A program made the translations under genes and the position numbers. The notes beneath the pieces were generated by a model. It made no database searches and was not told the DNA's origin. It saw only the letters and a program-made list of their open reading frames with translations. Source: Acholoe squamosa (taxonomy: Eukaryota > Annelida > Polychaeta > Phyllodocida > Polynoidae). From it: 64,000 nucleotides of DNA. The DNA lies in NCBI GenBank assembly GCA_949317995.1, contig OX439038.1, forward strand, positions 3,242,001-3,306,000, in the 5' to 3' direction. This document shows positions 8,721 through 25,290 of the stretch, piece after piece; within the stretch, counting starts at the first letter, position 1, and each line of letters begins with the position of its first letter.

Positions 8721-9061
8721 AACTCCTAGGGGGTCAGTTTTTATCGCAGATGCCGTAAAACCTACTAAAAAGGGGGTACGTTAATGATCGTAATCAATCA
8801 AACATGAATAACACCACTAATAAGAGGCCTGGAAACACCAAATATTGTGGCCAGACTGGTACAATACATGACTTTATGTATACCAAAAAGCTAAAGTGAG
8901 GCCCGAAAACTCTTGAAGTTACGCATAGGTGGATAAATTGGAAAATGTGAAAATTTGTGAATTTATTTTACCATTTTTTAACTTTAGCCTAGCTCATTCA
9001 AAATCCTTCATACAATGACTATATTAACTGTCCATTGTCTCTAGTAGACCTACTGTACATA

Positions 9062-9741
9062 ATCAGGTCTAAGCTAAAGAATAGAAATGACCCTGGGTGA
9101 TTTTTGACCCGGAGTCATTTTTGACCCTGCCCCCCACCATCCCCCCACTTACCCTACTTGAAGAATTTTCACCCCAGAGTCATTTTTGACCCTGGGTCAC
9201 TTTTTGACCCAGAGTCATTTATGACCCTCTCCCCCACCCCTCCCCTTCCCCCTCTCTCTGCCTTATCAGTTGACCTAGATAAGTGGCCTCCCCCCTATAC
9301 TGACTTTCAGTTATGAATGGGCAGCAGATTAAGTTTCAAATTGTGTTTTCTCAACTGCTATAGTTCATATCCAAAGGTTATTTTAGATTTAACTAGGATA
9401 CATATTGGTCTTTCTAGTGATGTATGATTGATCAATCTCAAATGTGATACAAACTTATCATTTGCATTATTGTCAGCCCAGAGAGCTATTTTCCCTCATA
9501 CCCACTGCAATAATTAAAACAGAATGCAAAATAAGATGGCTAAAAATTAGTTTGGTATTCTAGACTACCATTATCAATCCTCCTCTTTTCATATATGATG
9601 GTTTTATGATGGATAGATAAAGAAAAATGGTCCCAAAAAGCAAATTAAAATTGCTTTTTCCATAGCAGACAGAGCAGGGTCATTTTTCACCCTGGGTCAT
9701 TTTTCACCCAGGATCATTTTTGGGGTTTTACAGAACCTGAT
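9062..9741. mobile_element. About 680-bp insertion in the deleted copy
   Basis: Absent from the equivalent place in the complete copy (about 14940). It begins ATCAGGT and ends ACCTGAT. Inside both ends are clusters of short repeats of the type GGGTCATTTTTGACCC, which make long imperfect inverted repeats (about 9090-9230 and 9675-9722). The middle is AT-rich and has no coding capacity. It looks like a MITE inserted after the two copies separated. A deletion from the other copy is the alternative. Confidence 0.65.
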
Positions 9742-9820
9742 AATAATTAGAATTGGCCTGATATATCATACCTATACTTCATAGTTGGTGCTTGCATAGA
9801 GGCCATTATATTACACATAT

Positions 9821-11110
9821 TATCATTAACGTACCCTATTTGTTAACCTCTCAAAGAATGGCCACAGCTCATCTATACATCATCATATGCCATTGTTATC
9901 ACATAAACCATCACAAGAGAGGTTGTACTACCTATCTAGAGTCATTTAACCCTGCATAAGGCCCATCTTGGGTGTTTAATATCACTTTGAAAATTAAAAA
10001 TCACAAAATTTCTACACTTCTCGCAAAGCATGCATGCCATGGGGTGCTAAAATGCATCTTTATATACACCAAATAGTATTTTCTCATAAGCCAAACATGT
10101 CTATGATTGAATACAAATAATAGAAACACCATACAAGATGATAGGCTGGCACTATAACAATAGAACTTTAACCATCTCAAAATCCTCCTACCGGTCATTA
10201 ACGTACCCCATTTGCTAACCTATCAAAGAATGGCCACAGCTCACCTATACACTATCATATATCATTGGCATCACACACATAATGAGTAAAGAGGTTGTAC
10301 TACCTATCTAGAGTCATTTAAACATGCATAAGGTCCATCTTGGGTGTCCAATATAATTTTAAAATGGAGCACTGCATTAGTGCATCGTGCCGACACTACA
10401 GTGCTAATGCACTCCTTTTTTGATAATCCACAGATATCATCATCATATAGCATTCAGATACTCTTTTATAATAAGCCACACATCACTACTATTGAATAGA
10501 AATGATACAAAAACCATATCAAGTCACAGATTGAAAAAAATATAATTGTAACATTGTTCATCGCTCGTACCGGTCATTAACGTACCCTAGTCATTAACCT
10601 ATGAAATAATTGCCACAGCTCAACTATACACCATCATATACCATTGGCATTGCACACACATTGACAAAAGATATTGTACTACCTATCTAGAGTCATTTAA
10701 ACATATATAAGTCCCATATTTGGTGTCCAATATCACTTTGAAAATTAAAAATCACAAAATTTCTACACTTTTCGCAACGTCTGCATGTCATGGAGTGCTA
10801 AAATGTATCTTTATATACACCTAATAGTATTTTTTGATAAGCCACACACCTCTACTATTAAATAGAAATGTTAGAAATACCATACCAAGTGATAGGTTGA
10901 AAATATAGAATTTTAACTTTGTTAATGTCAAAATTGCTTGTACCGGTCATTAACGTACCCCAGTCGTTAAGGTATCAAAGAATGGCAACAGCTCAACTCT
11001 ACACCATCATATACCATTGGCATTGCACACACATTGACAAAAGAGATTGTACTACCTATCTTGAGTCATTTAAACATGCATAAGGCCCATCTTGGGTGTC
11101 CAATATCACT
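9821..11110. repeat. Tandem array of about 373-bp units, left arm of deleted copy
   Basis: There are four units, at 9821, 10193, 10572 and 10945. Each starts with the 17-bp motif and runs through AGAATGGCCACAGCTCA, GGTTGTACTACCTATCTAGA, CCCATCTTGGGTGT and TTTCTACACTTCTCGCAA. They are homologous to the array at 15019-17320. Confidence 0.85.
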
Positions 11111-11316
11111 TTTAGAATTAAATATCACAACACTTCTCGCAACCTCCTGTTGCCACACTGAACAAAAATATACCTATAGATATTAAATAAGTAAACAAGG
11201 TACATCTCAGTGCTGTAGTTTGGGCCAGTGGGTGCAGCGGGCAGCCCCAAGCGGGTGAACCCAGGCTTTCTATAGAACAAGCTGCCAGCCACTCCCACTC
11301 GCTCAAACTCCAGCAA

Positions 11317-11556
11317 CTGAGATGTAACACTTATTTGAAACAAACAGAACCATTTAGCACCTATTGGCAAGTCTGTTGTCTTCCTCCTTATGGTGCTTTA
11401 TTAGTTTCATGTTGGCGATTTTGACTGTGTTATCATGAAGGATGTGGCCCCAGACAGTGGAGTTCCCATACCGCTTCTTGTTCACATAGCCAAGGATGGT
11501 ATTATGGTATATAAACTGGACATTGGGCTTGGTTGGGAACTTGTGGCAAGTGAGGT
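11317..11556 (-). pseudogene. C-terminal remnant of the transposase gene
   Basis: About 240 bases match the extreme 3' end of the transposase gene (17324-17563), including the stop codon and the codons for the basic tail. The remnant ends abruptly at the internal deletion junction, so no catalytic residue is present. It shows that this copy derives from a coding element of the same family and did not evolve independently. Confidence 0.85.
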
Positions 11557-12282
11557 GATGCTGATATGGTAATTCATAGTGAGGAAATCAGTAGATTTTA
11601 AGATATACATAAATAAATAGGAAAAAAATATTCATCATGTTCCTATATGCTTACAAATGATGTACAGTAACCCCGAAAGTTCAATCAGCTGATTAATTGC
11701 TAATATGGAAATTTATACTGACAAAATATAAGAAAAATGCTGAAATATACCCACCACAAAAATTCTTTGGAAAAAAAGTATTCAGTATCTAACCAATGGC
11801 ACTTGTGTGAGTTAGAGGTACCATATGGGCATGTCATGGTGAAATATGATGGAGCTATGTGCACTGGAAGTGCCACTTGTGTGGAAAATACAGAATAAGA
11901 AGGGGGGGTACGTTAATGATCGCAAAGGTTTATAACCACTCAGCAGTGGGGGCTTTGTGCAAGGGTGAGCTTACCTGGTCAACACAACAGAGGGGGGACA
12001 TGTCTAACATACCCACCATAAAACATTCCCCTGAATCCAAGATGGTGACCAGTAGGCAGGCATCTTGCCACCGGGGTACGTTAATGACCGACGAGCACTA
12101 TCTCCCTAAATTTGGCCACTATGGCTATGCTTTCGATCCCACAGGAGGATTAACACACCAAAATGCCCAAATAGAGGTAGGAGAAGGAATATAACCCAAA
12201 AAAAACATGGGATAGGCACAATTTTGGCTGTGAGGGGGCCTAAAAGTTATCGACGAGGCAGAAAATTCAAGCCCAAATTGGG

Positions 12283-12840
12283 GTGGGGGGGTCATCTCAA
12301 AACACCCAAACATGGCCCAAAATGCATCTTACACACGTAGGGGGTCCTATTCTAAAGGATTATCAACAATTTAGACCCAAGGGTACATCATCTCGGCCAG
12401 GAGAGGCCAAATTCTGCTTGCCGAGCGAAAAATCATTAACGTACCCCAATTTTAAAAATACAGCCCGGGGTGGCCAAAGCTTCACCCTGGGGCCCCGGGC
12501 TGCATCGCAGGCCTCACCCGGCAACACATTTTACCCCCTAGCATCCAAAATACATCGTTTCGGTACACAAAAAGCGATCTACGGCCCCCCACAGATATCT
12601 CCAACAATATTTCATCGGAATTTCATGGAATTTCCTAACCTTTTTCGCGAATTTGGGGTTCCTTTTGCAGTAGAACTCTGCCTAGGGGTAGCTATAAACA
12701 AGCTGTGACCTCCTCTGAGCTGAAACAAGGTACCCGGATGCAGGCCACTTCCGCCGGGCAACAGGAAGTTGTTTTTCTCTTCCCGCGCTGTTTTTCCCGC
12801 CGCCGATCATTAACGTACCCCGCTTACAAAGAGACCCCCC
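12283..12840. promoter_or_regulatory. GC-rich subterminal block of the deleted copy
   Basis: The counterpart of 24230-24790, discussed there. ACTTCC and GGAAGT lie inverted at about 12747-12769. The long plus-strand open frame across it is not preserved in length between the two copies, so it is not called coding. Confidence 0.5.
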
Positions 12841-13324
12841 ATAAAGCCAAAGCAGACTGTTCAGGCATGATGTATTTACTCTAAAAGTGGCCATAGACTG
12901 TGGGAATTGTATGTATTTGGTTTATTTTATTCTATTTAGAGGCAAAAGCCTGGGGTACGTTAATGATCACGGTGTGCATTGAAAATCACTTATATGTGCC
13001 TGGCAAGGGTAATTTCCGGAGTACATGAAAATTTTTTTTATGGAAGACTCCCCCCTAGGGTACCTCTTAATTGCATATAATAAGAACACTGATAATATTC
13101 CCTAACTAGGTTAGATAGGCTCTATCATTAACATACCCCACGTGAAAATTTATAATTAAATGCATATAGAAGATAAATTATGCCCCAACACCCACCCAAA
13201 CCATATGGAAATCTTAGCTGTGACACCCCACTAAGGAATAAAAATATTATTGGTGGTGTAGAAGTGTTTCCCTTGCTATTATATGCCCAAGAAGCCACCT
13301 GACCAGTAAAACCTGGAATGCCCC

Positions 13325-14468: not shown

Positions 14469-14495
14469 GGGTCATTCCAGGTTTTACTGGTCAGG
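14469..14495 (+). repeat. Left terminal inverted repeat
   Basis: 27 bp starting GGGTCATTCCAGGTTTTACT. It matches the right end at 25264-25290 exactly, and identity breaks immediately inside. Confidence 0.92.
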
Positions 14496-14651
14496 GGGGG
14501 CCTGGATCAAGAATCTACAAACTCAGTATTTCTTAATAACATTATATTTTATTGATAGCCCTATATCTTGGCTTATTAAAAAGTTTCATTCAAGGATCCA
14601 ACTCCTAGGGGGTCAGTTTTTATCGCAGATGCCGTAAAACCTTCTAAAAAG

Positions 14652-17073
14652 GGGGTACGTTAATGATCGTAATCAAACAAACATGAATAACACCACTAAT
14701 AAGAGGCCTGGAAACACCAAATATTGTGGCCAGACTGGTACAATACATGACTTTATGTATACCAAAAAGCTAAAGTGAGGCCCAAAAACTCTTGAAGTTA
14801 CGCATAGGTGGATAAATTGGAAAATGTGAAAATTTGTGAATTTATTTTACCATTTTTTAACTTTAGCCTAGCTCATTCAAAATCCTTCATACAATGACTA
14901 TATTAACTGTCCATTGTCTCTAGTAGACCTACTGTACATAATAATAAGAATTGGCCTGATATATCCTACCTATACTTCATACTTGGTGCTTGCGTAGAGG
15001 CCATTATATTACACATATTATCATTAACGTACCCTATTTGTTAACCTCTCACAGAATGGCCACCGCTCATCTATACATCATCATATGCCATTTTTATCAC
15101 ATACACCATCACAAGAGAGGTTGTACTACCTATCTAGAGTCATTTAACCCTGCATAAGGCCCATCTTGGGTGTTTAATATCACTTTGAAAATTAAAAATC
15201 ACAAAATTTCTACACTTCTCGCAAAGCATGCATGCCATGGGGTGCTAAAATGCATCTTTATATACACCAAATAGTATTTTCTCATTAGCCAAACATGTCT
15301 ATGATTGAATACAAATAATAGAAACACCATACAAGATGATAGGCTGGCACTATAACAATAGAACTTTAACCATCTCAAAATCCTCCTACCGATCATTAAC
15401 GTACCCCATTTGCTAACCTATCAAAGAATGGCCACAGCTCACCTATACACTATCATATACCATTGGCATCACACACATAATGAGTAAAGAGGTTGTACTA
15501 CCTATCTAGAGTCATTTAAACATACATAAGGCCCATCTTGGGTGTTCAATATCACTTTGAAAATTAAAATCACAACTTTTTCAACACTTCTCACAGCCTT
15601 CGCTTGCAGCAAAGTACAAAAATATACACTTATATACCTTAAATACTCTTTCCTGAGGGTAAATGAGATCATAATACATATACACAGTCATTTAACCATT
15701 GATAAGGGCCATCTTGGGTGTTTAATATCACTTTGGAAATTAAAAATCACAAAATTTCTACACTTCTCGCCACATCTGCATGTCATGGAGTGCTAATATG
15801 TATCTTTATATACACCAAATAGTATTTTTTGATAAGTCACACACCTCTACTATTGAATAGAAATGTTAGAAACACCATACCATGTCATAGGTTGACAATA
15901 TCCAATTTTAACTTTGTTCATCTCTCAATCCTCGTACCGTCATTAACGTACCCTGGTCTTTAACCTCTCACAGAATGGCCACAGCTCATCTATACATCAT
16001 CATATGCCATTTTTATCACATACACCATCACAAGAGAGGTTGTACTACCTATCTAGAGTCATTTAACCCTGCATAAGGCCCATCTTGGGTGTTTAATATC
16101 ACTTTGAAAATTAAAAATCACAAAATTTCTACACTTCTCGCAAAGCATGCATGCCATGGGGTGCTAAAATGCATCTTTATATACACCAAATAGTATTTTC
16201 TCATAAGCCAAACATGTCTATGATTGAATACAAATAATAGAAACACCATACAAGATGATAGGCTGGCACTATAACAATAGAACTTTAACCATCTCAAAAT
16301 CCTCCTACCGGTCATTAACGTACCCCATTTGCTAACCTATCAAAGAATGGCCACAGCTCACATACACACTATCATATACCATTGGCATTGCACACACATT
16401 GACAAAAGAGATTGTACTACCTATCTAGAGTCATTTAAACATGCATAAGGCCCATCTTGGGTGTCCAATATCACTTTTAGAATTAAATATCACAAAGTTT
16501 CTACACTTCTCGCAACATCTGCATGTCATGGAGTGCTAAAATGTATCTTTATATACACCAAATAGTATTTTTTGACAAACCACACACCTCTTCTATTGAA
16601 TAGAAATGTTAGAAATACCAGACCAAGTGATAGGTTGACAATATCGAATTTTAACTTTGTTAATGTCAAAATTGCTCGTACCGATCATTAACGTACCCCA
16701 GTCGTTAACCTATCAAAGAATGGCCACAGCTCAACTCTACACCATCATATGCCATTGGCATTGCACACACATTGACAAAAGAGATTGTACTACCTATCTA
16801 GAGTCATTTAAACATGCATAAGGTCCATCTTGTCTGGCCACTGTGGCTTTGAAAATTAACAAATCACAAAATTTCTACACTTCTCGCAACATCGGCATGT
16901 CATGGAGTGCTAAAATGTATCTTTATATACACCAAATAGTATTTTTTTACAAACCACACACCTCTACTATTGAATAGAAATGTTAGAAACACCAGACCAA
17001 GTGATAGGTTGACAATATCGAATTTTAACTTTGTTAATGTCAAAATTGCTCGTACCGATCATTAACGTACCCC
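14652..17073. promoter_or_regulatory. Seven 17-bp motif copies, left arm of complete element
   Basis: Copies start at 14652(+), 15019(-), 15391(-), 15939(-, one base short), 16310(-), 16683(-) and 17057(-). From 15019 on there is one per tandem unit, all in the same orientation, with spacings of about 372-374 bases and one of 548. They are candidate transposase binding sites, which is inference from distribution only. Confidence 0.75.
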
Positions 17074-17320
17074 AGGCGTTAACCTATCAAAGAATGGCCA
17101 CAGCTCAACTCTACACCATCATATGCCATTGTTATCACATACACCATCACAAGAGAGGTTGTACTACCTATCTAGAGTCATTTAAACATACATAAGGCCC
17201 ATCTTGTACAAAAATATACACTTATATACCTTAAATACTCTTTCCTGAGGGTAAATGAGATCATAATACATATATACAGTCATTTAACCATTGATCCTAA
17301 AAACTCGCTAAAACTCCAGC
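15019..17320. repeat. Tandem array of about 373-bp units, left arm
   Basis: Six units start at 15019, 15391, 15939, 16310, 16683 and 17057; some are recombined or partial. Each carries the 17-bp motif, AGAATGGCCACAGCTCA, TACTACCTATCTAGAGTCA and TCTACACTTCTCGCAA. A 65-codon open frame recurs in several units, but only because the units are copies. The array ends about 40 bases before the transposase stop codon. Confidence 0.88.
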
Positions 17321-17359
17321 AACTGAGATGTAACACTTGTGTGAAACAAACAGAACCAT

Positions 17360-19880
17360 TTAGCAACTATTGGCAAGTCTGTTGTCTTCCTCCTTACGGT
17401 GCTTTATTAGTTTCATGTTGGCCATTTTGACTGTGTTATCATGGAGGATGTGGCCCCAGACGGTGGAGTTCCCATACCGCTTCTTGTTCACATAGCCAAG
17501 GATGGTATTATGGTATATAAACTGGACATTGGGCTTGGTTGGGAACTTGTGGCAAGTGAGGTTTTTCGCCGGATGAATGAGGAACATGACCTCATACATG
17601 TCACTCTCACTGTCCACAGCTAAGACCTTGCCCATGTGCCATGCGTCCTTGGTGGAGTCTGACTCATGCAGGAATGCGCAGGCGACAAACTGTCCCTCTT
17701 GGTACTCATCCTGCACGAATACAGCCGTATCCTCAATGTCCATTGTCGATCCGCCCTCAAAAACGGGAGGTGAGGTTGGTCCGTCCTGTCGCATGTGCTT
17801 TGTGACGGGGGCCTCAACTGCACGCTCCGCAGCACGCTTTCGTGCGGCACACGGAGGCACATTTTCTTTGTTAGCCGTGGCTGGGGCAGGAACCATGTTC
17901 TTGCGGGTGCGCTTGCCAGCCACGACGGGTGAGGGACCCCCTTGGCGCTTGCAGGCAGAGGTGCTAGCGACAGGAGTGGGGAGAGTGTTCCGTACCGAAG
18001 TACCTCGAGTCTGCTTTGGCGGGGGTACATCATCGCCGTCCACCTCAGCAGGGACAGTCCTCTGTCGCGTCTGCCGTGGTGGGGGAGGAGCCTTCTTGTT
18101 GTTGAATTTCATTGGGTGTGTGATCCAGTCTGGACACCCACGAATGGACCTAAGGTCGGCCCAGCAGCACTCGCTGAAGCATGATTTGTGGCGTACAGCG
18201 AGGGACTTCCCGGGTTCGGCGGGCACAGCAGCATGAACTTTCTGGGTGCCCTTGATGGACTCGTCCGCTGCTACTTTGCCGACTGTGAGACGGGCGGTGG
18301 CGATATCCGCAACCGGAACGCAGATGTACTTGACGCGGCCTTCGAGTAGGTTGCCTTCAGCCGCGAAGCGCTCTGCATTCTGGATTAGCGTTCCCCTGTT
18401 GACGAGGTTGTCTGCGTTGCGTTTTGCTGCAGCTCCAACGCCGTCACAGGGGCCCTTTCCGTGTCCCGCCTCGAAGTAGGTCCATGTCGCTTGTAGACCA
18501 CTGACAAGTTCTGCGTGGCGCACCAGTATGGAAAAGATGGAGATGTTCCGATACTGGCTCGATGGGGAGTCCGATGCATAGTGCACCCACGCGACCTGGG
18601 GCAGGTTCTCTTGCAGGAACGCTGCCAGAACTTGAATGAATGCCAGGATCGCACCGGTGTCATGCTTTCTGTCGTCGGTGACGAGGGCCACAGAGTGGTG
18701 TCTGATCTCCCCAGTTGGTCCATGCCGGTAGTGAAGGACTGCTGGGTGGAGCGTAACCGGGTCTTTGGCGTAATAGACACTCTGTGGCCCATCAGGATAC
18801 GAGACAAGCCAATTCTCGGCGAAGTCCATCTGGATGACTGTCTCGTACACTGACAAGGAACTCCTCAGTTCACGCACGATCCGGTGTTGGCTACGGGCCC
18901 GATCGACGTGGTCGGCCATGGACATGAACTCGTCCTTGACCAATGTGATGAACTCCTTTTTGGATTTATCGGTTACCCAAGTGGGCCGGAGCTTCATCAC
19001 CATCTTCTTCTCCTCGGGCTTGCCGTAGATAACCGGAACGTACTTCCACGTCAGGTAGTCTACATGGTCCATCTTCACCGACTGGGTCAGCTGTTGCTCG
19101 AACACGTCCGCAGTGGTGTTCTGGACCAGGGTGTCCACTGAAGTCTTGATGTTAGCTGCCTTCAGCATGAGAGCGAAATTTTGATGTTTCTGGCAGAGGC
19201 AGATTTTCTCATTCTGCAGCTCTACCGGAATTAGATAACTATGTTTACTCCTGATGTTGTAGAAGGTGGTGGACTCCACAGGCCAGGCAGGGTTGGTGTC
19301 AAGGTAGCGCTTGTGGAGGACATACACAAACTCCACCAGGTTCCTTTTCTGTTCTCTGACCTTGACACCATCCAAGTTAACAATGATGGAGTCACCTTTG
19401 CCTGGCATCATGGTGGAGTTTTCCGGTAGGTACAGGAACTCAACGACTGCTGCCTCGCGTGCCTTTGCATTGACAGTGCTTTTATGGGGCTGATCTGAAG
19501 GGGGTGACGCCAGAGACTTGCGGTTGACCTTAATGTCCTTAGCCATCTGGGTGGTGAGACCCTTTGCTTGAAGGTTGGTTTCAGGGAAGGCCTTCCGCAT
19601 GAAGTCTAGTGTGTCTTTGCTGTTGAGAGCCGCCACCCCATCGTAGATAAGATCTTTACACTTTTGCTGCTTCTGTGGTGTAGCAGCTGGACCGGCCGCC
19701 TGTGCCAAATCCGATTGTAGACGCGCCTGCATAGAGGACACCGACTCTCGCGTTGCAGCCAGTGTCCTCTCGAGGTACTTGATGCGGTTAGTTTTAGGTG
19801 TTGTGGTCTTCCTTGTCGTTGTCGGGGGTCGGTTTGCAGGGGTCGTCATCATTTTAGTCTGACCGGTAGGCGGGGAGGTG
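17360..19880 (-). CDS. Transposase exon 4, catalytic and C-terminal domains
   Basis: An 830-codon frame from ATG at 19852, extended nine codons to an acceptor (CCAATTTACAG) at 19881-19882. Numbering from that Met: coiled coil about 20-55; possible zinc ligands C218, C220, H223 in ICLCQKHQN; likely catalytic acids D343 (QMDFAENW), D428 (YASDSPSSQYRN) and D470 (GHGKGPCDGVG); a KGTQKVH strand near 534; Cys-rich CFSECCW near 558; a low-complexity basic linker 585-700 containing ANKENVPP; and a C-terminal SH3/Tudor-like region about 712-815. The TAA stop is followed within 40 bases by the 373-bp array. I see no AATAAA close by. A start at 19852 giving an 830-aa product is possible. Confidence 0.88.
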
Positions 19881-22800
19881 CTGTAAATTGGAAATGAGAA
19901 AGCATTAATAAATTGGTATTTAGAAATTCATTTGAGGCATTAGTCAGCAAAGCGAATATTATGTCACTACATGAGCTAATTTCACTACATGAGCTAAATT
20001 AAATTGTTAATCATTTATGCTTTACTTGTGATATTATGTCATGGTGATAATATTAACCAGTAATTGTAATAACAATACGATGTCATGTACATGAGCTAAT
20101 TCTAAAAAGGTGGCAATACAAGTATAGTCAAATAAGCAGCAACAACTAACATTAAACAAGCAACATCTCAACATGCAACACAACTAGTCTATTCTAATAT
20201 AGCATTCTACTGTATAATTACATTATGCTACTCCTGCTCAACGGAGCGCTTCAAGGTAGCACTGGAAAATGAATGGCAATTATAAGAATTATCTGGACTA
20301 ATAAATAGGTTAGGCTAATAATGTGGACCTTATGTATGTTTAAATGACCCTAGATAGGTAGTACAATCTCTTTTGTCAATGTGTGTGCAATGCCAATGGC
20401 ATATGATGTTGTAGAGTTGAGCTGTGGCCATTCTTTGATAGGTTAACGACTGGGGTACGTTAATGATCGGTACGAGCAATTTTGACATTAACAAAGTTAA
20501 AATTCTATATTTTCAACCTATCACTTGGTCTGGTATTTCTAACATTTCTATTCAATAGTAGAGGTGTGTGGTTTGTCAAAAAATACTATTTGGTGTAAAT
20601 AAAGATACATATTAGCACTCCATGACATGCAGATGTTGCGAGAAGTGTAGAAATTTTGTGATTTTTAATTCTAAAAGTGATATTGGACACCCAAGATGGG
20701 CCTTATGCATGTTTAAATGACTCTAGATAGGTAGTACAACCTCTCTTGTGATGGTGTATGTGATAACAATGGCATATGATGTTGTAGAGTTGAGCTGTGG
20801 CCATTCTTTGATAGGTTAACGACTGGGGTACGTTAATGATCGGTACGAGCAATTTTGACATTAACAAAGTTAAAATTCTATATTTTCAACCTATCACTTG
20901 GTCTGGTATTTCTAACATTTCTATTCAATAGTCGAGGTGTGTGGTTTGTCAAAAAATACTATTTGGTGTAAATAAAGATACATATTAGCACTCCATGACA
21001 TGCAGATGTTGCGAGAAGTGTAGAAATTTTGTGATTTTTAATTCTAAAAGTGATATTGGACACCCAAGATGGGCCTTATGCATGTTTAAATGACTCTAGA
21101 TAGGTAGTACAACCTCTCTTGTGATGGTGTATGTGATAACAATGGCATATGATGTTGTAGAGTTGAGCTGTGGCCATTCTTTGATAGGTTAACGACTGGG
21201 GTACGTTAATGATCGGTACGAGCAATTTTGACATTAACAAAGTTAAAATTCTATATTTTCAACCTATCACTTGGTCTGGTATTTCTAACATTTCTATTCA
21301 ATAGTAGAGGTGTGTGACTTATCAAAAAATACGATTTGGTGTATATAAAGATACATTTTAGCACTCCATGACATGCCGATGTTGCGAGAAGTGTAGAAAT
21401 TTTGTGATTTGTTAATTTTCAAAGCCACAGTGGCCAGACAAGATGGACCTTATGCATGGTAAAAACGACAATTCTACTAACATAGGGTGGATCCACAGAA
21501 AACACAATATCTGCACACAAGTGATTTGATACCTTTAAAGTGATCATAATACTTACACATAATCCTCCGCGAGGGCCAGGTTGCCCGGTGGTGGCGGCGA
21601 AGAGTCGGCCGGCCTCGATCCGGTCGAACGCTGGCTGCGCCTCCTCTTGGGGGAGTCTTTCTGCGCAGCCTGACGGACCGGTCGAGTCGTCCGGCTCTCC
21701 TCTGCCACCTCCGGGGCAACCTGTCCTCGCCCCCCCGCCTCCGTGGTCGCTGCCCTCGGTGCCTCCTCCACGGGCGGTGCTGGTGAGGCCGTCGCGGCGC
21801 TGGACTTGGCCCTGCCAGCTCGGCCTCCTGCCTTGCCCTTCCCGGGTGGTGCTGTGGGTGGTGCTGCCGAGGGTAGTGGTGGTGGTGCCGTGGCCACGAC
21901 GGGCTCTGGGGAGGAGCACCCGGCCAGGCTTTCATCCCCCGACGAGATGAGGATGGCTGTGGCAGGGTCCACTCCAACCACAGGCGCATGAGTCTCCTTG
22001 AATGTAGAGCAAGGGGCAAAACCATTAGTATTTAGTATTGTGGCCATTCTTTGACAGGTTCGAAATTCGATATTGTCAACCTATGACATGGTATGGTGTT
22101 TCTAACAATTCTATTCAATAGTAGAGGTGTGTGACTTATCAAAAAATACTATTTGGTGTATATAAAGATACATTTTAGCACTCCATGACATGCCGATGTT
22201 GCGAGAAGTGTAGAAATTTTGTGATTTTTAATTCTAAATGGCATATGATGTTGTAGAGTTGAGCTGTGGCCATTCTTTGATAGGTTAACGACTGGGGTAC
22301 GTTAATGATCGGTACGAGCAATTTTGACATTAACAAAGTTAAAATTCGATATTGTCAACAAATCACTTGGTAAGGTATTTCTAACATTCTATTCTATAGT
22401 AGAGATGTGTGGCTTACTATAAAAGAGAATGCTATAGTGACATTATAAACTATCCACCTACCTCCTCACTCCCGTCGGGGGACGAGAAGGACACCCGCTG
22501 GTACCTGGGGCGAGGGGCGAAGGGGAGGCGAACGGTCAGCTTCCCGAGCCCCTTGCCCCGGCCCCCTGCGGGTGTCCCTCTTCCCGCTGCCGCAGGTGCC
22601 GGTGCGGAGGCTGCAGCCGGACGTGGAGCCGCCTGCTCCGCTGCAGCCCCGGGAGCCGCCTGCTCTGGCACCAACACCGCAGCAGCGGTCGCAGCTGGGG
22701 TGCCCCTCCCAGTGCCTGCCTGGGCCTTCGGTCTCCCTGTTGGTGTGGGTGGGAGCGGCGGGAGGCCCAGCTTCTTCCGTCTCTGAATTCAGAAAGGGAA

Positions 22801-23339
22801 AGACACATTAAGTAAACTGTCACACTGGCGAGTTACTCGCAGCAGTGTTTTGACTTAGCATTTACAGTATCTGTCCCTTGAAATTTGTATACTTATTAAC
22901 ATTCTTAATCTCATATCACAATAAAATGTTACCACCAGAGTAGCAGATTTTGAGGCACCACAGAGACTGAGAGGACGGAAAATTATCAAACCTTGTTCTC
23001 TTTCAGTCGCTCCCGGTAAGCCTTCTTCCGGGCATGGAGCATCTCGCGCCGCCGCTGCTCCTCAGCAGGGTCTCCCGCCAGTCTCTCCCTGTCCTTTTCT
23101 CGCTGGCGACGCGAGATCTCCGCCCGGTGGGCATCATAGGCGGCCGCCCCCATCTCCTGCCGCAGCCTGGTCTCGTACCGGGCCGAAGCTGCGGCATGGA
23201 GACGGGCCGCCTTCTCCCGGTCCTCCCGGTCCTCCTGCTCCTCCAGGTCTGGAGCATCAGCGGGAGCGTGCTCCCGCACACACCTCTTAGGGCGACGGGG
23301 GGGGTCGCCACCACCGCCACTGGAGGCTACGTCAGCCAT
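17360..23339 (-). CDS. Transposase, four coding exons, about 1209 aa
   Basis: The inferred CDS joins 23339-22992, 22782-22462, 21996-21557 and 19880-17360 on the minus strand. Each junction is GT-AG and keeps frame (phases 0, 0, 2). The result is one uninterrupted reading of 1209 codons plus stop. The order is: basic coiled N-terminus (exon 1), Pro/Ala-rich basic linkers (exons 2-3), then a DDE-like catalytic region and a C-terminal barrel-like domain (exon 4). The fold pattern matches a multi-copy animal transposase family commonly left as uncharacterized proteins (D in DFAEN, D in SDSPSSQYRN, D in GHGKGPCDGVG). The N-terminal RR.REKDRERL...RRREM...RKKAYRERLK pattern is what I recall at the start of that family. 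It is expected to cut and rejoin the element ends in the nucleus. The splicing is inferred, not shown by cDNA. Confidence 0.82.
20320..21455. repeat. Inverted array of 373-bp units within intron 3
   Basis: Three units nearly identical to one another, in opposite orientation to the 15019-17320 array. Motif spacing is exactly 373 bases. The array lies wholly inside the inferred intron between exons 3 and 4, so the splice sites are not disturbed. Very low divergence between neighbours points to recent amplification or gene conversion. Confidence 0.88.
20452..22310. promoter_or_regulatory. Four 17-bp motif copies inside transposase introns
   Basis: GGGGTACGTTAATGATC starts at 20452, 20825, 21198 (exact 373-base spacing, intron 3) and 22294 (intron 2). 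Orientation is opposite to the left arm. The motif therefore points toward the catalytic exon from both sides. Confidence 0.78.
21557..21996 (-). CDS. Transposase exon 3 (146 codons plus 2 bases)
   Basis: Acceptor near ACATTCAAG (or three bases later, same frame). Donor GT|GTAAGT is a consensus 5' splice site. It encodes ETHAPVVGVDPATAILISSG, then long Pro/Ala/Arg/Gly-rich low complexity with a basic KRRRSQRS patch suited to nuclear import. The exon ends two bases into a codon. Exon 4 begins with the one base needed, giving Val and nine more residues before the first Met of the long frame. Without splicing the frame stops one codon later. Confidence 0.7.
22030..22410. repeat. Single 373-bp-type unit within intron 2
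   Basis: A rearranged unit in the same orientation as the intron 3 array, carrying one 17-bp motif (22294). It fills most of the inferred 465-bp intron 2. Confidence 0.82.
22462..22782 (-). CDS. Transposase exon 2 (107 codons)
   Basis: Acceptor TTTCTGAATTCAG and donor GAGGAG|GTAGGT, both in phase 0. Encodes RRKKLGLPPLPPTPTGRPK, then an Ala/Pro-rich low-complexity stretch, then a more ordered part ending RYQRVSFSSPDGSEE. Strikingly GC- and CpG-rich against the AT-rich introns. No enzymatic motif; probably a flexible linker. On its own the frame would look like a meaningless short ORF. The clean in-frame joins to both neighbours are the evidence. Confidence 0.68.
22992..23339 (-). CDS. Transposase exon 1 (116 codons)
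   Basis: Starts MADVASSGGGG. The ATG directly follows a strong acceptor (pyrimidine-rich run ending TTTTTGCAG), so a non-coding 5' exon probably lies upstream. Residues about 32-116 are highly charged and helical, with repeated Arg, Glu and Gln and a basic YRERLKENK end: a likely coiled-coil or DNA-contacting leader. The donor reads AAG|GTTTGA, of moderate strength. An open frame continues upstream through hydrophobic AT-rich sequence but crosses the acceptor, so I prefer the start at 23339. Confidence 0.72.
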
Positions 23340-23835
23340 CTGCAAAAATGAGAAGAAATACATTAAATAAAAAGGTAAATAGTGATTAAACAAGTTCCTA
23401 TATGCTGACAAAGCATGTACAACAAAGCCAAAGATTTTATCAGAGGTTTTTATGCTGATATGGTAATTCATAGTGAGGAAATCAGTAGATTTTAAGATAA
23501 TAAGGAATTTGTTAGTGTTTGAATACTGATAAGATATACATAAATAAATAGGAAAAAAATATTCATCATGTTCCTATATGCTTACAAATGATGTACAGTA
23601 ACCCCGGAAGTTCAATCAGCTGATTAATTGCTAATATGGAAATTTATACTGACAAAATATAAGGAAAATGCTGAAATATACCCACCACAAAAATTCTTTG
23701 GAAAAAAAGTATTCAGTATCTAACTAATGACACTTGTGTGAGTTAGAGGTACCATAGGGGCATGTCATGGTGAAATATGATGGAGCTATGTGCACTGGAA
23801 GTGCCACTTGTGTGGAAAATACAGAATAAGAAGGG
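23340..23835 (-). other. Transposon sequence between first coding exon and right arm
   Basis: An AT-rich stretch beginning with the pyrimidine tract of the exon 1 acceptor. It is probably intron between a non-coding leader exon and exon 1. From 23450 it is shared with the deleted copy at 11557 onward. Confidence 0.5.
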
Positions 23836-23964
23836 GGGGTACGTTAATGATCGCAAAGGTTTATAACCACTCAGCAGTGGTGGCTTTGTGCAAGGGTGAG
23901 CTTACCTGGTCAACACAACAGAGGGGGAACATGTCTAACATACCCACCATAAAACATCCCCCTG

Positions 23965-24003
23965 AAACCAAGATGGCGACCAGTAGGCAGGCATCTTGCC
24001 ACC
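23965..24003. promoter_or_regulatory. YY1-like motif with inverted partner
   Basis: CAAGATGGCGACC at 23969-23981 fits the YY1 consensus. An inverted CATCTTGCCACC follows at 23992-24003, directly abutting a 17-bp motif. YY1 sites are known in transposon promoters such as human L1. In the deleted copy the CpG has decayed to AAGATGGTGACC. The role here is inferred. Confidence 0.45.
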
Positions 24004-24229
24004 GGGGTACGTTAATGACCGACGAACACTATCTTCCTAAATTTGGCCACTATGGCTATGCTTTCGATCCCACAGGAGGATTAACACACCAAAATGCCCA
24101 AATAGAGGTAGGAGAAGGAATATAACCCCAAAAAAACATGGGATAAGCACAATTTTGGCTGTGAGGGGGCCGAAAAGTTCACGACGAGGCAAAAATTTGG
24201 CCATTCAAGCCCAAATTGGGGTGGGGGGT

Positions 24230-24790
24230 CATCTCAAAACACCCAAACATGGCCCAAAATGCATCTTACACACGTAGGGGGTCCTATTCTAAAGGATTAT
24301 CAACAATTTAGACCCAAGGGTACATCATCTCGGCCAGGAGAGGCCAAATTCTGCTTGCCGAGCGAAAAATCATTAACGTACCCCAATTTTGAAAATACAG
24401 CCCGGGGTGGCCAAAGCTTCACCCTGGGGCCCCGGGCTGCATCGCAGGCCTCCCCCGGCAACACATTTTACCCTCTAGCATCCAAAATACATTGTTCCGG
24501 TACACAAAAATTGATCTACGGCCCCCCACAGACATCTGCAACAATATTTCATCGCAATTTCATGGAATTTCGTGGAATTTCCTTACCTTTTTTACGAATT
24601 TCGCGTTGCTTTTGCAGGGGAACTCTGCTTCGGGGTAGCTATAAACAAGCTGTGACCTCCTCTGAGCTGAAACACGGTACCCGGATGCAGGCCACTTCCG
24701 CCGGGCAACAGGAAGTCGTTTTTCTCTTCCCGCGCTGTTTTTCCCGCCGCCGATCATTAACGTACCCCGCTTACGAAGAGACCCCCCATA
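24230..24790 (-). promoter_or_regulatory. CpG-rich promoter-like block upstream of transposase
   Basis: A sharply GC- and CpG-rich block about 1 kb 5' of the first coding exon, in an otherwise AT-rich arm. It has inverted ETS-type motifs ACTTCC (24694-24699) and GGAAGT (24711-24716), and 17-bp motifs at 24368 and 24752. A plus-strand open frame of 229 codons crosses it, but the deleted copy does not preserve its length, so I read this as regulatory DNA and not a gene. The transcription start is not determinable by eye. Confidence 0.5.
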
Positions 24791-25263
24791 CAGCCAAACC
24801 AGACTGTATTTGGCCACAATTCTTGTTCAGGCATGATGTATGTACTCTAAAAGTGACCATAGACTGTGGGAATTGTATGTATTTGGTTTATTTTATTCTA
24901 TTTAGAGGCAAAAGCCCGGGGTACGTTAATGATTGCGGTGTGCATTGAAAATCACTTATATGTGCCTGGCAAGGGTAATTCCCGGAGTACATGAAAAATT
25001 TTTTCATGGAAGACTCCCCCCTAGGGTACCTCTTAATTGCATATAATAAGAACACTGATTATATTCCCTAACCAGGTTAGATAGGCTCTATCATTAACGT
25101 ACCCCACGTGAAAATTTATAATTAAATGCATATAGAAGATAAATTATGCCCCAAGACCCACCCAAACCATATGGAAATCTTAGCTGTGACCCCCCACTAA
25201 GGAATAAAAATATTATTGGTGGTGTAGAAGTGTTTCCCTTGTTATTATATGCCCAAGAAGCCA

Positions 25264-25288
25264 CCTGACCAGTAAAACCTGGAATGAC

Positions 25289-25290
<2 letters not shown>
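25264..25290 (-). repeat. Right terminal inverted repeat
   Basis: Exact inverted match of 14469-14495. It is followed at once by (TA)n. The deleted copy carries the same end at 13298-13324 with one change. Confidence 0.92.

Follow-up and report, generated by a model that had tools for sequence, protein, structure and literature searches.

A terminal-inverted-repeat transposon of Acholoe squamosa with a dispersed, family-specific motif and a candidate reader exon that changes with it

The genome of the polynoid annelid Acholoe squamosa carries a complete DNA transposon whose noncoding sequence is dotted with copies of one short motif, and it is this element, its single gene and the motif that concern us here. 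The window that we analyzed is a 64-kb stretch of contig OX439038.1 (positions 3,242,001 to 3,306,000, forward strand), and all coordinates are positions within it unless a contig (C) or another stretch (L, E) is named. The element spans 14469-25290 (10,822 bp) and has perfect 27-bp terminal inverted repeats (TIRs) at both ends. Its gene is predicted from the sequence to consist of four exons with GT-AG borders and a single frame of 1,209 amino acids (aa), the coding exons making up 34% of the element's length. The parts are as follows.

14469..14495, + strand: left TIR, 27 bp, within (TA)n; exact match to the right TIR
17360..19880, - strand: exon 4, putative transposase core (DFAENW ... SDSPSSQYRN ... 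GHGKGPCDGVG); open frame
21557..21996, - strand: exon 3, linker; GT-AG borders, frame preserved
22462..22782, - strand: exon 2, Pro/Ala-rich linker; GT-AG borders, frame preserved
22992..23339, - strand: exon 1, 116 aa, candidate motif reader; splice sites, divergence, structure model
25264..25290, - strand: right TIR, 27 bp, within (TA)n; exact match to the left TIR

The motif of this element, M1 (ATCATTAACGTACCCC), occurs at 17 sites in 14469-25290. A scan of the window allowing up to three mismatches returned 28 matches against 0.10 expected, of which 17 lie in the complete element and 11 in a truncated second copy, with none anywhere else in the window. The original prediction had described a complete transposon with perfect 27-bp TIRs in (TA)n, one intact spliced gene, and 17 motif copies with none outside the two element copies, and all of these features were recovered, the gene as a predicted model. 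Ten of the 17 sites are the exact 17-mer, and the remaining seven differ from it by 1-3 bases, confined to the first two letters or the last.

14652..14667, - strand: M1 site, 183 bp from the left end; M2 (see below) at the matching position of L031
15020..15035, + strand: M1 site, 3' flank repeat
15392..15407, + strand: M1 site, 3' flank repeat
15939..15954, + strand: M1 site, 374-bp array
16311..16326, + strand: M1 site, 374-bp array
16684..16699, + strand: M1 site, 374-bp array
17058..17073, + strand: M1 site, 374-bp array
20452..20467, - strand: M1 site, intron 3 array (373 bp)
20825..20840, - strand: M1 site, intron 3 array
21198..21213, - strand: M1 site, intron 3 array
22294..22309, - strand: M1 site, intron 2, context resembling the arrays
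23836..23851, - strand: M1 site, unique context upstream of exon 1; another motif at the homologous position in M2, M3 and M4 copies
24004..24019, - strand: M1 site, unique context; another motif at the homologous position in M2, M3 and M4 copies
24369..24384, + strand: M1 site, unique context; another motif in M2 and M4; hybrid-looking ATCAGTAATTTACCCC in the M3 copy L057
24753..24768, + strand: M1 site, unique context; another motif in M2 and M3; decayed in the M4 copy
24918..24933, - strand: M1 site, unique context; four motif types found at this position
25090..25105, + strand: M1 site, 185 bp from the right end; another motif in M2 and M3 copies

Seven sites stand in non-repeat contexts, and across these a 15-bp core (TCATTAACGTACCCC) is invariant; the mean pairwise identity of their 16-mers is 98%, and that of their 40-bp flanks is 26-27%, i.e. 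chance. The other ten share repeat contexts: most belong to the 373/374-bp arrays of the 3' flank and intron 3, two (15020 and 15392) to diverged units, and one lies in a copy within intron 2. None of the 17 sites lies in a coding exon; since the repeat-borne sites are not independent, we attach no probability to this count. The two outermost sites are mutually inverted and stand at nearly equal distances from their ends (183 bp on the left, 185 bp on the right).

How closely is the motif tied to the element outside of the window? In the 1.48 Gb of genome searched, the exact M1 17-mer occurs 1,232 times (615+617) and its reversed control never (0+0); the TIR, with two mismatches allowed, has 442 copies (control, 0). 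The excess over expectation in the window and the empty reversed control genome-wide exclude M1 as a chance or general genomic motif. At least one element TIR is present in all 16 stretches fetched for M1 (seven clusters on C1, all among the matches listed, and nine on C2), and no copy of the motif in these stretches falls outside an element. Conversely, an exact M1 17-mer lies within about 530 bp of 23/23 exact TIRs (C1, and C2 below 96.078 Mb, among the matches listed). The proposal that M1 is a site specific to this family is thus borne out, as neither of the observations named as speaking against it, a random density across the genome or insertions with the same ends that lack the motif, was made in the sample. 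Of 35 ends that match the M1 TIR with up to four mismatches, 29 are flanked by (TA)n when at least 10 of 12 bases are required to fit; of 14 more that match the TIR of its relatives at the same tolerance, 11 are so flanked; the nine ends that fail include interrupted TA runs and decayed ends. Insertion within (TA)n masks the length of any target duplication, including the 2-bp TA expected for Tc1/mariner.

Twelve M1 elements have both ends (the one in the window, E1, E3, E7, E22, L012, L015, L016, L024, L025, L027 and L028) and carry 9-18 M1 sites each. Seven of the twelve are shortened to 2.9-5.4 kb, and the outermost sites are retained in 7/7 shortened M1 copies with both TIRs. Identity among five two-ended copies is 96.9-99.1%, and a protein search with exon 4, which scored 54 of 1,770 candidates and whose counts are therefore lower bounds, gave 57 rows, including at least 50 full-length exons at 98-100%, at least 44 of these without a stop. 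The M1 family appears young and was probably active recently. With its TIRs, its many dispersed near-identical insertions and its transposase-like gene, the element is a TIR DNA transposon. Two exon 4 copies (C4:80572568-80575114 and C13:28183498-28186044), which match at 98% over residues 1-370 and at 93-94% over residues 357-830, are possibly mosaic.

Relatives of this family, which lay beyond the reach of the original prediction, carry other motifs. M2 (TTCACTCACGCCTCA) has 606 copies in the genome (control, 0). M3 (ATCAGTAACGNTCC) was found in L038-L043, L053, L054 and L057, and its T form has 479 copies genome-wide (control, 7). M4 (ATCAGTATAGTCCCC) comes from a single locus, L058. The backbones of these relatives are recognizably the same: noncoding identity between types is 68-80%, and L021, for example, holds a related non-autonomous element that is alignable to the main element and has sites that are TTCACTCACGCCTCA or close to it. 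Two decayed M2 copies of autonomous type, A2 (L029+L030) and L032, have exon 4 pieces with 71-85% protein identity to the main element, except for one 18-residue piece (94%), and neither contains an M1 site at up to three mismatches. Six of the non-repeat positions lie on the promoter side of exon 1; there the site differs by type while its flanks can still be aligned. The M3 copy L057 lacks the 24918 position, and its site at the 24369 position is M3-like in the first half and M1-like in the second; the M4 copy L058 has a decayed 24753 site and no 25090 position; and A2 has lost the two outermost site positions.

When sites were typed at up to two mismatches in 48 stretches, 44 stretches were of a single type: 19 M1 (184 sites), 15 M2 (113), 9 M3 (30) and 1 M4 (4). 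Two more (L045 and L046) have no typed site, and two have one odd match each, E7 (13 M1 sites plus an M2-like match outside the element) and L050 (4 M2 sites plus an M3-like match). Reversed motifs gave four matches in 262 kb, all to M3. As the stretches were selected by motif, the per-type numbers are not frequencies; purity is unaffected. A one-base variant, TTCACTCACGCTTCA, defines subfamily 2b, and both L048 and L049 carry 2a- and 2b-type sites, a mixture expected of stepwise change. Could the motif simply be functionless DNA, spread by tandem duplication and conversion? The 10/17 sites that lie in the 373/374-bp repeats or share their context are what such spreading would leave behind, but the seven sites in unrelated contexts have flanks at chance level and the types switch jointly while their flanks stay alignable, and we find this explanation scarcely credible.

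Three smaller observations concern the arrangement of M2 sites and elements. In L031 and L055, the site homologous to 24004 is doubled as a 19-bp tandem; at C4:15368991-15369081, exact M2 sites follow one another at 19-38 bp; and at L021:572-3164, an M1 fragment adjoins the M2 element, both in (TA)n runs.

One exon changes along with the sites. The nucleotide identity of the exon 1 core between M1 and M2 is 54.8-56.0%, within the range of codon shuffles (mean 52.4, maximum 59.3), and that between two M2 copies is 91.3%; the corresponding values for the first half of exon 4 are 87.9-89.2% and 93.3%. (A lenient-gap comparison of exon 1, at 73% versus 74% for shuffles, inflated all identities, and the stricter alignment was used instead.) The encoded proteins are still related: some 110 residues of exon 1 can be aligned between M1 and M2 at 41% identity, and the shared residues lie mainly at the two ends and at isolated charged positions. 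The parts of exons 2 and 3 that were compared are 79% and 71% identical, comparable to noncoding DNA. In 6/6 between-type pairs, exon 1 (residues ~12-88) falls 12-19 points below the noncoding DNA (exon 1/noncoding nucleotide identity of 57/70.8, 66/80.4, 59/77.3, 55/69.1, 49/68.4 and 66/78.2), whereas for the same-type pair A2/L055 it is 91% and the adjoining 1,132 bp 94.4%. M2-type exon 1 occurs at 13 places in the genome, one of them a 44-bp piece; M2 sites adjoin it at 4/4 places checked (C1, C2, C4:9.70 Mb and C12), and the L055 copy is stop-free. Exon 1 was sought in the M3 stretches L053 and L054 and is absent from both. In the M1 copy at L056:186-461, exon 1 has partly turned into an ED/LEDQ repeat run.

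Synonymous positions have diverged as well. Between M1 and A2, nonsynonymous (dN) and synonymous (dS) divergence are 0.63 and 1.5 in exon 1, the latter near saturation and rough, and 0.07-0.10 and 0.30 in exon 4. Among codons that keep the same amino acid, 18/29 differ in the exon 1 core and 125/663 in exon 4 (Fisher P 8e-7), and in exon 4 the proportion stays at or below 38% in every 29-codon window. As synonymous sites are older in exon 1 too, exchange with a more distant lineage is favored over positive selection alone.

What, then, reads the motif? A host factor might bind it as a promoter, enhancer or insulator, the subfamilies having taken up different host factors. Six sites upstream of exon 1 (23836-25105) and the strictness of the 15-bp core would suit such a role; set against this are the four motif types at the same positions, the co-change of the motif with an exon of the element, and the confinement of the motif to elements in the stretches fetched for M1, and we judge a host reader to be improbable. 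For a family-specific site that is constant in unrelated contexts and changes as a set with one exon, the best explanation is that the product of that exon recognizes it. The joint change of exon 1 and motif thus lends indirect support to the idea, raised in the original prediction, of an N-terminal domain that binds the motif. With modest confidence, we therefore favor an autonomous TIR transposon in which the motif would be the site of the element's own protein, read by the N-terminal domain that exon 1 encodes, reader and sites having changed together. In molecular terms, the element would insert into (TA)n; a helical N-terminal domain would bind the motif; the inverted near-end sites, with the additional copies in arrays and introns, would recruit the protein to its own family; and the protein would mobilize, and perhaps also de-silence or activate, solely DNA carrying its address. 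In sister subfamilies, the reader exon and sites would have been switched jointly while the catalytic exon and backbone stayed alike. The pattern points to families that each read no address but their own. As to the effect of binding, we infer recruitment for transposition first, and anti-silencing or activation second.

A different order of priorities, in which the protein acts chiefly on silencing by binding the arrays and removing silent marks or driving transcription along the element, in the manner of VANC, with transposition needing the ends alone, draws on the CpG dinucleotides. The element has a higher CpG observed/expected ratio (0.67) than the window as a whole (0.40), which fits a young element in a CpG-methylating host, and the host does appear to methylate CpG. 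A CpG stands at the same place in M1, M2 and M3, and in the older types no other position is lost as often (in M2, C9 in 22% of 77 sites; in M3, C9 in 23% and G10 in 27% of 26 sites). This pattern is expected where a site is methylated, and the reader may therefore be sensitive to methylation. The noncoding, intronic and tandem-repeated layout, with a motif that differs between related families, also matches that of the motifs of VANC21, a VANC protein of Arabidopsis (PMC5735166). Yet M4 has no CpG, and the outer letters of M1 sites vary more than the CpG does; moreover, the sites 183-185 bp from the ends are kept in non-autonomous copies unable to make the whole protein, which suggests a need in cis for movement. 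Silencing as the protein's primary target is rather unlikely in our estimation.

Several observations weigh against recognition by the exon 1 product. Exon 1 similarity and motif similarity both track backbone similarity, such that the six between-type pairs are not independent, and in that comparison exon 1 and noncoding DNA were aligned by different programs. Exon 1 of M3 and of M4 is known from one decayed copy each, and the second-half letters of M3 are less uniform than those of M1 or M2 sites. The raised synonymous change could mean either that exon 1 is older than its neighbors, through exchange, or that it is a mutation hotspot; exon 1 could also evolve fast for other reasons, e.g. escape from a host repressor. 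In-place change at many separate sites is without an explanation. Additionally, the AlphaFold model of exon 1 has three helices (residues 32-63, 65-88 and 91-115) with a predicted local distance difference test score (pLDDT) of 80 and a predicted template modeling score of 0.41; as it was built from two input sequences and has no fold match in the PDB, a DNA-binding fold is no more than a conjecture.

Known elements offer partial parallels. In maize Ac/Ds and in hAT and CACTA elements, the element's own protein has short recurrent target sites close to both termini, a layout like the one proposed here; the sites described here differ in running through introns and the whole 10.8 kb. The closest likeness is to the Arabidopsis Mutator-like elements (MULEs) VANDAL21 and VANDAL6, whose motifs have, according to PMC5735166 and PMC10398659, co-evolved with the element proteins VANC21 and VANC6. 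The motif bound by VANC21 is YAGTATTAY, found in the introns, tandem repeats and other noncoding DNA of VANDAL21; the motifs of VANC6 are different ones (PMC5735166). The original prediction had put forward the spread of the motif over the whole element, introns included, as a candidate for an undescribed system, and for dispersal over introns as such these VANDAL21 motifs do not bear that out. Both systems share a short family-specific motif that recurs many times in noncoding sequence, in introns as well as tandem repeats, and differs between related families. However, the VANDAL reader is a separate VANC protein and here the candidate is the first exon of the only gene found; the motif is 9 bp there and 14-16 bp here; and motifs switch here at fixed aligned positions, outside repeats too. 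Neither a MULE-type transposase nor a separate vanC gene was seen in our element, which has one gene and no Pfam family in exons 1, 3 and 4. MuTAnT, a Medicago MULE, likewise inserts into TA microsatellites (PMC4486113), but it is a plant element with a mudrA-like transposase, and its abstract does not mention a dispersed motif. Among the titles and abstract openings of the open-access papers searched, a scope exclusive of subscription papers and Repbase, no animal element with dispersed, switchable sites was found. New relative to VANDAL/VANC are the animal host, which the Wnt genes of the window also indicate (Wnt is not known outside animals), the unclassified transposase and the in-place switching of motifs.

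We propose, tentatively and as a possibility that we place below the recognition reading itself, that one animal DNA transposon lineage has diverged into four or more families within a single genome by changing a private address written into all noncoding parts of the element, the exchangeable reader exon and the shared catalytic exon forming a modular specificity code that would prevent cross-family mobilization or de-silencing. Such a system would be an animal counterpart to the sequence-specific anti-silencing or family-specific mobilization of plants. It would single out one short exon as the candidate specificity domain, a region that the Discussion of PMC5735166 defers to later work. Additionally, four natural motif/exon pairs in one genome would make a many-site change of a self-recognition code testable by swapping exons and sites.

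The affiliation of the protein was pursued by several routes. Exons 1, 3 and 4 match no Pfam family at E<=1, and exon 1 of M2, searched at E<=10, gives a sub-cut-off match to DUF7302 alone (E 0.5). Exon 4 matches no PDB sequence, and exon 1 has one PDB sequence match, which we judge to be chance (E 0.27). A known transposase superfamily was accordingly rejected by sequence on the Pfam (exons 1, 3 and 4) and PDB (exon 4) results, and a Tc1/mariner DDE/D domain was likewise rejected. Viral contigs gave no matches to six peptide patterns of the element, and a residue string taken from the element, like four others resembling it, was unmatched in the open-access papers searched. A single-sequence structure model of exon 4, considered with an RNase H-like catalytic fold in view, has a pLDDT of 34 and was left unused for fold assignment. 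The C-terminal end of exon 4 (residues ~720-790; window ~17485-17695) is predicted, with low confidence, to be beta-rich; we presume a resemblance to a Tudor-type chromatin reader, with no Pfam match.

Two neighboring features complete the picture of the window. The truncated second copy of the M1 element has the following position.

about 8773..13324, + strand: second M1 element, truncated, with 11 sites and one right TIR

Its end is marked by a third TIR, with one mismatch, at 13298-13324. The window also contains 46 Wnt exon matches.

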